This document shows, in pieces, positions 19,983 through 44,508 of a stretch of DNA of 48,010 nt (position 1 is the stretch's first letter; each line of letters opens with the position of its first letter). Source of the stretch: Prevotella sp. (lineage in GTDB: Bacteria > Bacteroidota > Bacteroidia > Bacteroidales > Bacteroidaceae). The notes below the pieces were generated by a model, which worked only from the letters and a program-made list of their open reading frames with translations, made no database searches and was not told the DNA's origin. Location: positions 1 through 48,010 of the forward strand of contig JAFZIL010000044.1 in the NCBI GenBank assembly GCA_017554385.1. Direction: 5' to 3'. Made by a program: the position numbers and the translations under genes.

Positions 19983-22436
19983 ATGAAAAAGAACGTTTAC
20001 AACCTATGGCTTTTCGCCGCCCTCCTGTGCGGCCTGAGCCTCGGCGTCACCTCGTGTAAGGATGACGACAACAACGAAGTGAGTGCTGAAGAGCAGGCTG
20101 AGCAGGCCAAGGAGCAGGCCGATGTTTTCTGGGGCGTGGTCGACGAGCTCGCCGGTGCCGATGCCATCACCGACGACTACCAGAACAAGACCTTCGAGCC
20201 TATCATCGGTACACCCTCCGACGAGAACCCGCAGCACCGCATCGTGGCCACCAACGACATGTACACCGCCGCCATGCGCTTCAACCAGCTCATCGGCGAG
20301 GATAAGGTTGATGAGAACACCACTGAATATGTCTACCAGAACGATGCCGTGGGTACGCTGACCTACCGCAAGAGCACCGACGGCAAGTCCTGGGCCACCG
20401 TCGATGTCAGCATCAAGCAGATGCCACACCTGCAGAAGATTATCTACCGCTCACCCGAGCAGGCCGACAGCAACGGTCCCTTCGAAGGCACGGCCTACTA
20501 CCGCTTCGGCGACATCGTAACCCGTACGGTGACCGCCAAGGACGGCACTACACACTACGAGGACTGGATCTGCGTGCGCCCCTGCTTCGGCCCCGAGGGT
20601 AAGGAAAAGTCGCACTGGGTGAGCATCAGCCCCCTGTCCTCGGACAACGTTTGGCCCTATACGGGCAGCAACGGTATCGAATATGCCATGCCCACCGGTT
20701 TGGGCGAAAATGTCGAGCATGCACAGAACTTCGCCGAGATGCTCTACGCCATCTGTTTCCCCAAGAAATGGCATCAGAACGTCTTCAACCAGCAGGACAA
20801 CAAGGACATGCGTATGTTCCATGATTTCAACAAAGTCCAGCTGAAATACCACAGTCATTATTTCTGGCAGCGCGTGAATTATGGCTGGGTCAAAGAGAAC
20901 AAGATCTTTGAAGACCTCTTCGGGTCGAGCGTAGCCAAATTCCAGACGATGCTTGAAAGTAAGGACGGTCTGAACCTGCTCACCAAGGGCTATAACTGGA
21001 TTACCAGGGGCATCTTTGCCACCAACAGCCCCAAACTCCACCGCGAGCGTTTCACCACCGGTCAAGGCATTGAGAGCAACATGCATCAGGGTGGCAAGAT
21101 AACGGCAGTCACGAAAGAGGTCATCAAGAACAAGATACAACTGAACGTCAACGAGCAGTACACCCTCGAGCATCCCTATTGGGTGAATGCAGCTTTCTTC
21201 GGCACGGATGCTCCGCACTATATCATCCGACACGCCACTGGTGCTGAACTCTCTTCCAACGGCAAGGAGGATCCCAAGCAGCCACTTGCAGGCGTAACAC
21301 ACAAATGGGTCTACAACGTACACTACGGCATCACCGACCTGACCGTTCCCCCCGAGACCTTCGATGAACAAGGCAACCCCACCAACGAATCCGGATATAA
21401 GAACCGTGCCTATTACTCCCAAGGCGACATCGTGAAGGACGCGAACGGCAACAGATGGATGTGCGTGCAGCCGTCGGGATACGGCGATGCCGACCGTTTC
21501 AAGAAAGAGCCCTATTCCTATTTCATCAGTTTCGAGAAGAAGCCCATCGAAGGTAGTTTGCTGGTAACTAACGTACCTGCTACGAAGAATCTGGCAGCAC
21601 AGGTCCTCTTCAGTCTGTCATTACTCTACCAAAACTACGTCCCGAAAATGAATGACAAGTCTGCGGTTTCCTATCAAATAGTGCAAAACATGCGCGACAA
21701 TCTCGGCGTCGAGTTGAGCGAACTGATTGTCAAGCGCGACACACTACACACATTCAAGGGCAAGACGGTGGGCGAGTCGGTCCCCTGCTCCTTCGTCAGT
21801 GCCCTTTACCGCGATGCCGATAACAACCTCTTGGTGTTGCGCCTCGTGGGCGACTACACCAAAGAGCAGGCAAGTGGCGGCCGCGACATGTCGTGGTATT
21901 TCTACACGAACTACACGAACACCACTACTCCGATGCTCCTGAACCACTTAGGCGATTCTGCCTACGTTAATAATAAGTACAACGAAGACAAGTGGGTCTA
22001 TCAGCCTTGGTTCGACATTGCCACCAGCAAGATTGTCACTTATACTACCAAAAACGGAAAAGTGGAATATTATAATGCGGGGCCGCGTACCTATGTAATG
22101 GGCGCTTATAACCTCGAGATTAACCAGTTGATCTATAAGCGGGGAGAATCAGTACTGACCAGCCTCGTGCAACCTGCCAATATGTATCGCGAACCCCTCA
22201 TTCTCTTTGCCGTCAAGCGTGTCAGGGACAACGGCGTGAAAGCCACAAGCTTCGACGACGGCATCGAATTCTCCGAATATAAGATGATGAAGGAAATCGA
22301 CGATGATTTTGCAGATGACGATCCGAGAGTAACCAACCGCATATCTGATACTTATCAGCAATACAGCCCAGACCGCATCTTCCTCGAAGAGAAGAACTGG
22401 CAGTTCGGTATGGCTAACAGTACTAAATCGTACTAA
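19983..22436 (+). CDS. Lipoprotein A, first member of a large paralogous family
   Basis: An 817-residue predicted surface lipoprotein of no family I can name. The signal peptide ends in GVTSC (Cys25), followed by KDDDN, which resembles the Bacteroidetes surface-export signal. Around residues 70-150 is the shared N-terminal domain (FEPIIG, RIVATND, GTLTYRK, VDVSIKQMPHLQKIIY). A first Y-x-x-GD motif unit at about 171-215 reads AYYRFGDIV, then WICVRP, then HWVSIS. A second copy at about 477-515 reads YYSQGDIVKDANGNRWMCV. These units faintly recall chitin-binding CBM5/12 modules. The C-terminal 270 residues are distinct. It heads an eleven-gene same-strand cluster and follows the operator-like repeats. 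Confidence 0.88.
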   Translation: MKKNVYNLWLFAALLCGLSLGVTSCKDDDNNEVSAEEQAEQAKEQADVFWGVVDELAGADAITDDYQNKTFEPIIGTPSDENPQHRIVATNDMYTAAMRFNQLIGEDKVDENTTEYVYQNDAVGTLTYRKSTDGKSWATVDVSIKQMPHLQKIIYRSPEQADSNGPFEGTAYYRFGDIVTRTVTAKDGTTHYEDWICVRPCFGPEGKEKSHWVSISPLSSDNVWPYTGSNGIEYAMPTGLGENVEHAQNFAEMLYAICFPKKWHQNVFNQQDNKDMRMFHDFNKVQLKYHSHYFWQRVNYGWVKENKIFEDLFGSSVAKFQTMLESKDGLNLLTKGYNWITRGIFATNSPKLHRERFTTGQGIESNMHQGGKITAVTKEVIKNKIQLNVNEQYTLEHPYWVNAAFFGTDAPHYIIRHATGAELSSNGKEDPKQPLAGVTHKWVYNVHYGITDLTVPPETFDEQGNPTNESGYKNRAYYSQGDIVKDANGNRWMCVQPSGYGDADRFKKEPYSYFISFEKKPIEGSLLVTNVPATKNLAAQVLFSLSLLYQNYVPKMNDKSAVSYQIVQNMRDNLGVELSELIVKRDTLHTFKGKTVGESVPCSFVSALYRDADNNLLVLRLVGDYTKEQASGGRDMSWYFYTNYTNTTTPMLLNHLGDSAYVNNKYNEDKWVYQPWFDIATSKIVTYTTKNGKVEYYNAGPRTYVMGAYNLEINQLIYKRGESVLTSLVQPANMYREPLILFAVKRVRDNGVKATSFDDGIEFSEYKMMKEIDDDFADDDPRVTNRISDTYQQYSPDRIFLEEKNWQFGMANSTKSY

Positions 22437-44508: not shown

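Follow-up and report, generated by a model that had tools for sequence, protein, structure and literature searches.

A recurring Prevotella lipoprotein gene cluster combines three MACPF classes with a fusion of a binding domain and a legumain-type protease and may encode a multi-part pore-former

The nearest studied proteins to the system described here are the BSAPs and the CDCL toxins of Bacteroidales. BSAPs carry a lipid cysteine with a surface export signal and a MACPF domain, some of them with a BACON domain at the N-terminus, and of the three genes in the BSAP-2 operon the MACPF gene suffices (PMC12853789, PMC4999547). CDCL toxins occur as pairs and triplets and undergo proteolytic activation by surface C11 proteases (PMC11169675). 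Both BSAPs and the CDCLs of Bacteroides kill bacteria (PMC12853789, PMC11169675). In Bacteroides thetaiotaomicron, two MACPF lipoproteins lie among other lipoproteins in the putative operon BT_3433-BT_3442 (PMC2954219). The subject of this study is a cluster of eleven lipoprotein genes in a 48,010-nucleotide stretch of Prevotella sp. DNA (GenBank assembly GCA_017554385.1, contig JAFZIL010000044.1, positions 1 to 48,010 of the forward strand), hereafter called the window. A first-pass annotation of the window had regarded the known Bacteroidales MACPF toxins as single proteins, which holds for the studied BSAPs and is too simple in view of the CDCL pairs and triplets (PMC11169675) and the two-MACPF cluster of B. 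thetaiotaomicron (PMC2954219).

The cluster resembles the BSAPs in its lipid cysteines with surface-type signals, its MACPF domains and its BACON-like N-terminal domains, whereas it combines three MACPF classes with a fused protease and a further protein family, here called N (the comparison covers features other than the C-terminal domain groups). Adjacent genes for lipoprotein pore-formers are a CDCL trait that the cluster shares; complement-like assembly, proteolytic activation and immunity through a surface lipoprotein are further CDCL traits that it may share (PMC11169675, PMC11952106). However, the activator identified for the CDCLs belongs to family C11, is located on the target cell and is encoded outside the toxin operon (PMC11169675), whereas the protease here belongs to family C13, is fused to a binding domain and is encoded within the cluster. 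The domain PF01289, which defines the CDCLs, was not found in g1-g11 by Pfam scans at E<=1, in which the HMMER filters drop most weak matches. The B. thetaiotaomicron cluster differs in that trefoil, porin, Ig-like and TPR proteins are named, and no C13 protease or substrate-binding fusion is named in its description (PMC2954219). The likeness to the complement membrane attack complex lies in the several distinct MACPF subunits and concerns only how such a system works; the subunits here are bacterial lipoproteins, and their assembly is putative. No published MACPF-C13 cluster was found in a literature search beyond whose reach most subscription journals lay, and joint encoding of such a ligand-gated extracellular protease with its pore-formers is, to our knowledge, not known from any other bacterial system.

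The cluster occupies positions 19983-44508 (+ strand) of the window, which is contig C41 of a 3.06-Mb genome that is 81% complete. Open reading frame (ORF) calls and translations agreed with the first-pass annotation on eleven lipoprotein genes on one strand with short gaps, which measured 33, 45, 26, 13, 71, 25, 59, 126, 205, and 31 bp from g1 to g11 (the 205 bp between g9 and g10 are counted to the likely ATG at 41103 and become 154 bp if the TTG at 41052 is used). Iterated profile searches split the genes into two families, M (g6, g7, and g9) and N (g1-g5 and g8), and two single genes, B (g10) and P (g11). The assignments below were made with translations and family profiles for N, Pfam and class profiles for M, profile searches for B, and Pfam and alignments for P.

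19983..22436, + strand: g1, N-family lipoprotein
22470..24989, + strand: g2, N-family lipoprotein
25035..27533, + strand: g3, N-family lipoprotein
27560..29077, + strand: g4, N-family lipoprotein
29091..31652, + strand: g5, N-family lipoprotein
31724..33526, + strand: g6, BACON-like and divergent MACPF domains, no domain beyond
33552..36140, + strand: g7 (class A5), BACON-like, MACPF and C-terminal domains
34443..34949, + strand: MACPF match within g7 (Pfam profile search)
36200..39019, + strand: g8, N-family lipoprotein with a GLUG-like stretch (Pfam scan)
39146..40897, + strand: g9, MACPF domain and a C-terminal part related to that of g7
41103..42185, + strand: g10 (B), lipoprotein whose fold found no match
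42217..44508, + strand: g11 (P), lipoprotein with a type-I substrate-binding domain and a C13 protease
43681..44466, + strand: C13 domain of g11, with His615 at 44059-44061 and Cys665 at 44209-44211

Genome-wide profile searches revealed a single C13 match in the genome, which is g11, and three Pfam MACPF matches, none of which lay outside this cluster and a second, incomplete one; the composition of the cluster is thus more than chance. The second cluster lies on a 5.5-kb contig of the same genome (C97 of G000; L053, 1-5531) and contains, besides the terminal part of an N gene, a g6-like gene (47%) and a g7-like gene (55%). The idea of a plasmid-borne region was rejected, as g11 and g7 had no tblastn match in the plasmid collection.

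All three proposed MACPF relatives were recovered, g7 and g9 by Pfam and g6 through an orthologue and class profiles. The match of g7 to PF01823 was above the cut-off (6.8e-10), and that of g9 was borderline (8.6e-4; 19.9 bits against a cut-off of 21.5), reaching 21.3 bits in the genome-wide search and 22.9 bits with neighbours. In the Pfam scan g6 itself showed no MACPF match and only a weak BACON match; its class profile aligned along the MACPF region of the g7 and g9 profiles (hhalign 99.7% and 99.6%, respectively), and its orthologue in locus L167 matched Pfam MACPF at 4.3e-8. With the class profiles of g7 and g9, complement C6 ranked first among PDB chains (8.6e-7 and 4.4e-5, respectively). 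The MACPF signature FGTHVV...GG was present in g7 and, in a similar form, in g9. Profile comparison showed that the C-termini of g7 and g9 were partly related, and g6 has no C-terminal domain. A Fibrobacter-major domain at the C-terminus of g7 was rejected, as it was matched in two homologues at 0.017 and 0.015 and not in g7. Among the 34 loci with at least three MACPF ORFs of over 300 residues each (window included), 29 contained exactly one g6, one g7 and one g9, three contained three g7-like proteins, and two contained five g7-like proteins and one g9-like protein. When 63 MACPF domains, taken from 21 of these 29 loci, were placed in a tree, the classes formed separate, supported branches (g6, 100/100; g7, 100/99; g9, 95/94). 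Six adjacent MACPF genes were seen as a block in L039/L040 (G083), L154, L200 (G464), L199 (G007), and L208 (G081), with MACPF matches on only some members of the G083 run, and in L108, L154, and L200 such a block was located 3' of P.

A binding domain fused to a C13 protease, as claimed in the first-pass annotation, was evident in g11. The front of the protein matched Peripla_BP_6 (39.3 bits, cut-off 31.7; 8.5e-10), ANF_receptor (35.4 bits, cut-off 25.4) and PDB entry 4gnr (1.6e-13), and the rear matched Peptidase_C13 at 1.9e-40 (139.4 bits, cut-off 22.8). In alignment A1 of 21 P sequences, the lipid Cys24, His615, and Cys665 were invariant, so the catalytic His/Cys pair is intact. Alignments with homologues and human legumain showed that R504 was kept in P and that the motif NYRHQAD was common to P and the human enzyme. 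P is therefore like legumain in its C13 domain, its catalytic residues and this motif, and differs in its fusion to a type-I substrate-binding domain, its lipid anchor and an Asn at position 707 instead of the aligned Asp. One genome, G032, gave nine P matches, including a short fragment and one with an internal stop codon.

P was found in 48 of 301 genomes of the family, 10 of 392 of the order and 1 of 392 of the phylum, the last being the window's own genome, which is included in each sample. A scan of genome contigs for relatives of P yielded 399 stretches, and 79 named loci were taken from the best 80; these are biased to near relatives and include near-duplicates (L141/L142, L115/L116), so that counts among them are not independent, their genes beyond the window come from a crude ORF finder, and one of the 79 (L152) gave no P. 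Most of them are rumen and gut metagenome-assembled genomes, and the isolates Prevotella communis E15-14 (L182) and Paraprevotella xylaniphila YIT 11841 (L164) carry the set. In 69 named loci the sequence extended 1.5 kb or more beyond P on its upstream side, and B directly preceded P in 61 of these. Of 48 loci with at least 9 kb upstream, 38 had at least one MACPF match, 33 at least two and 31 at least three, and 37 had an N match; the common orders were M-M-M-N-B-P and M-M-N-M-B-P. A lack of conserved gene order in relatives had been named in advance as a refuting result, and it did not arise: the same order is seen outside the genus, both in further genera and within one or more additional families of the taxonomic order. 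Distances between components across 26 loci were correlated (Spearman 0.70-0.90 among g6, g7, g9, B, and P; 0.47-0.53 between N and the others), with none of 999 permutations as high, as expected if the components travel together. A set of 119 genomes of the genus, among them the window's own, contained 35 MACPF matches on 21 contigs. When the 26 strongest C13 matches were considered, 17 of these MACPF matches, on 10 contigs, lay no more than 20 kb from one of them; a simple formula for random placement predicts 0.36 contigs. We are confident that the cluster is a conserved functional system, and since a similar kit recurs in gut bacteria of the same order, the genes probably form a real weapon or defence of several parts and are not neighbours by chance.

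The first-pass annotation had likened the lipoprotein signals to those for surface export, and the sequences support this. In all eleven window proteins, the lipobox Cys, judged by eye in the translations, was followed by acidic residues: CKDDD in g1-g4, then CKDND, CKSDD, CSDDD, CSSDE, CSSDD, CKGDDD, and CKSDDD (an automatic scan misplaced the g8 Cys and missed g11). When lipobox-positive proteins were counted, positions +2 to +6 after the lipid Cys held two or more acidic residues in 282 of 346 M, N, B, and P proteins (M, 101/113; N, 75/104; B, 53/62; P, 53/67). Among lipoproteins of other kinds encoded at these loci, 23 of 60 did so. These data support predicted export of the cluster proteins to the cell surface.

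Legumains cleave after Asn, so P was proposed to cut at an Asn in the linker between the BACON-like and MACPF domains and to free the MACPF part. Two linker residues were considered.

34032..34034, + strand: Asn161 of g7, BACON-MACPF linker, candidate cleavage site for P
32174..32176, + strand: Asn151 of g6, BACON-MACPF linker, weak candidate

In the g7 class (29 proteins), an Asn stood nine residues past the last Gln of the BACON-like domain in 27 of the 28 rows with a letter at that column, which was the most conserved of the linker, and all 29 linkers contained an Asn somewhere, compared with 17.3 expected. All 29 linkers of the g6 class also contained one, with 17 of 29 at the best column; composition alone gives 21.8, so there is little support for a site in g6. 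No such linker was found in g9 of the window. In a small control set of three MACPF proteins from contigs without P (L201, L202, and L203), examined with a crude linker pattern, Asn occurred within the stretch but off the fixed place, and by the same crude pattern the six-MACPF proteins did not clearly follow the linker rule.

The resemblance of g10 to a BMP protein suggested earlier was not borne out, as PF02608 was matched in only 1 of 25 homologues (E 0.076). No usable Pfam or PDB match to g10 was obtained, the PDB hits looking like chance, and homology of B to the substrate-binding half of P was not accepted on a 62-column match at 74.8%. The six genes said to share a domain do so: g1-g5 and g8 have a common N-terminal domain of about 190 residues (profile comparison 8.6e-42), for which profile scans gave no useful Pfam, NCBIfam or PDB relation. 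A CBM5/12-like carbohydrate-binding reading of an N motif is not claimed, as it came from a single g4 match (E 0.17). N had the lowest median pairwise identity across the 26 loci (0.22, for the copy nearest P, a figure that hidden paralogy may lower), followed by B (0.24), g6 (0.24), g9 (0.31), g7 (0.32), and P (0.41). At 45732-48010, an ORF running past the window end had GLUG-like repeats that by eye resembled the single one of g8.

Coordinated control of the cluster is supported by predicted sites upstream of g1, which follow a group of regulator-like and membrane protein genes.

15517..16734, + strand: AraC-type regulator with a membrane-like N-terminal half, TTG start uncertain (HTH_18 39.2 bits, cut-off 33.6)
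17344..18048, + strand: regulator-like membrane gene, no helix-turn-helix detected (ORF and Pfam scan)
18093..18650, + strand: small membrane protein (ORF and Pfam scan)
18703..19806, + strand: AraC-type regulator with a membrane-like N-terminal half (HTH_18 38.1 bits, cut-off 33.6)
19823..19878, + strand: three direct repeats TCAAAATnnGCAA starting at 19823, 19842, and 19863, candidate operator (repeat search)
19925..19932, + strand: TATCTTTG, fitting TAnnTTTG (pattern scan), 50 bp past the repeat pair

We take TAnnTTTG to be the consensus of the Bacteroidetes -7 element; its only other + strand occurrence in 19.8-44.5 kb was at 39166, within g9. The exact 21-bp repeat pair was found once in the genome. 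In G083, seven pairs were found with at most one mismatch, and the six on the contig of its P cluster preceded N genes, the first gene of a MACPF run and a regulator-like membrane gene. The distance from pair end to TAnnTTTG was 50-51 bp at six of seven sites examined (the window and five in G083), the promoter-like match at the G083 regulator-like gene being 74 bp away. The seventh G083 pair, an exact copy (L212, 2239, contig C23), preceded a non-cluster gene, with TAnnTTTG 51 bp after it. Only matches with two or three mismatches were present in G018, G067, and G101, and controls with the backward pattern gave no match. Homologues of the 15517..16734 gene (70% identical) and of the 17344..18048 gene adjoin the G083 cluster. 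By eye, N-termini like that of the 18093..18650 product were noted in G083 and, following operator-like sites, in G116, where two nearby, weaker pairs lie beside a gene with a similar start. Degenerate repeats like the g1 operator were present at 17180-17257, upstream of the 17344 gene. Terminator-like sites in 26000-45500 numbered 18, against 18.4 in shuffles. Short tandem repeats were also seen between g8, g9, g10, and g11 (39018-39139, 40890-40956, and 42183-42229), and the 15-mer AATTTGCTACCGCTC had four copies in the genome, three of them in these repeats.

We tentatively propose, as a quite possible account of the whole, that the cluster encodes a lipid-tethered, three-component MACPF pore-former that is matured by its own surface protease and acts in bacterial antagonism. 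That P acts on the MACPF proteins is the somewhat favoured part of this account. The MACPF proteins would be held on the producer by their lipids, g6 and g7 also through BACON-like tethers, and g6, g7, and g9 would assemble as a hetero-oligomer in the manner of CDCL pairs and complement proteins. Perhaps with help from B and under the control of a small ligand, P would cut g6 and g7 at the linker Asn and thereby release or activate their MACPF parts. The fast-evolving N proteins may provide target recognition or self-protection, and the output would be the killing of competing bacteria. A stricter version, an extracellular counterpart of the complement cascade in which P as a Venus-flytrap-legumain fusion senses a ligand together with B and cuts the linkers to yield a mixed three-subunit pore, with N in recognition or self-protection, is rather unlikely in its entirety.

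Several points weigh against the proposed protease-matured pore-former, whose activity, localisation and cleavage are predicted. The His of the MACPF signature was missing in all 12 g6-class rows, so g6 may not insert. The linkers of near relatives read DxDxNG, which resembles a Ca2+-binding loop, an alternative role for the candidate site at Asn161. Asn707 was invariant in P where aligned human legumain has the Asp of 'YLGDW', presumably a residue of the S1 pocket, and one might guess at a shifted P1 preference. No operator pair was found at up to three mismatches in G032, G041, G072, and G134, and 26000-45500 contained 23 sigma-70-like sites where shuffles gave 12.3, an excess that leaves room for promoters inside the cluster. 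Moreover, 11 of the 21 MACPF contigs had no strong C13 match nearby.

The remaining points of this kind favour a different explanation, in which B and P form an independent surface sensor-protease with other substrates and the MACPF genes are frequent neighbours in a lipoprotein-rich region. B-P occurred without a MACPF match in 10 of the 48 well-covered loci, two of which (L107 and L118) had MACPF genes farther along the same contig, and also in L193-L196, while G007 had six MACPF genes and no C13 match. In some loci a lipoprotein of about 750 residues with no MACPF domain detected adjoined N-B-P in place of the trio. Proteins of this family (648-802 residues) were found near B-P in eight contigs (L092/L174, which are one contig, L096, L098-L101, L178, and L179), with a lipobox in eight of nine locus entries; in four aligned members only a BACON-like front was common with the MACPF classes, and beyond it no Pfam or PDB match was found. 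Owing to these proteins, the MACPF-less B-P pairs and the six-MACPF blocks, B-P looks like a core with exchangeable effectors. However, the presence next to B-P of a single member of each MACPF class in 29 of 34 loci, the co-divergence and the 10 of 21 MACPF contigs near a strong C13 argue against independence, which we consider unlikely.

MACPF proteins of other groups attack eukaryotic membranes, and the named loci come mostly from rumen or gut, so rumen ciliates or fungi might be the targets instead of bacteria; Paraprevotella xylaniphila, which we take to be a human-gut isolate, carries the full set, and eukaryotic targets are improbable. The nearest studied proteins, BSAPs and Bacteroides CDCLs, kill bacteria as well (PMC12853789, PMC11169675). 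There is a similarly slim chance that the MACPF folds are non-lytic and serve surface binding or uptake, for which the substrate-binding domain in P, the absence of the signature His from g6 and the cross-membrane transport role once suggested for Bth-MACPF (PMC2954219) would speak; Pfam scans found no ABC transporter or SusC-like gene among the eleven, and related MACPF proteins are bactericidal (PMC4999547). Self-directed defence on the model of bacterial gasdermin systems, in which the protease would respond to an attack by opening a pore in the producer itself, is very improbable. A weak PADLOC caspase match of g11 (0.0024) and the clan-like analogy with caspase-fold proteases that accompany pore-formers speak for it. 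Against it, all parts carry surface-type signals and are predicted to lie outside the cytoplasm, and the PADLOC scan, which covered seven proteins, gave no further support and no convincing match to an anti-phage system.

What is new here is the layout of three MACPF classes with a sensor-protease, as MACPF-type antagonism was already known. If the protease-matured pore-former is real, it would be a third Bacteroidales weapon of MACPF/CDC type beside BSAPs and CDCLs, distinguished by a protease of its own, and would give access to how multi-subunit MACPF pores stay safe and are switched on at a bacterial surface. The cluster also places the fusion of a ligand-binding domain with a legumain-type protease in a gene context for the first time, together with the large N family, which has no Pfam name. 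Its MACPF proteins are relatives of human immune pore-formers, carried here by a gut or rumen bacterium.

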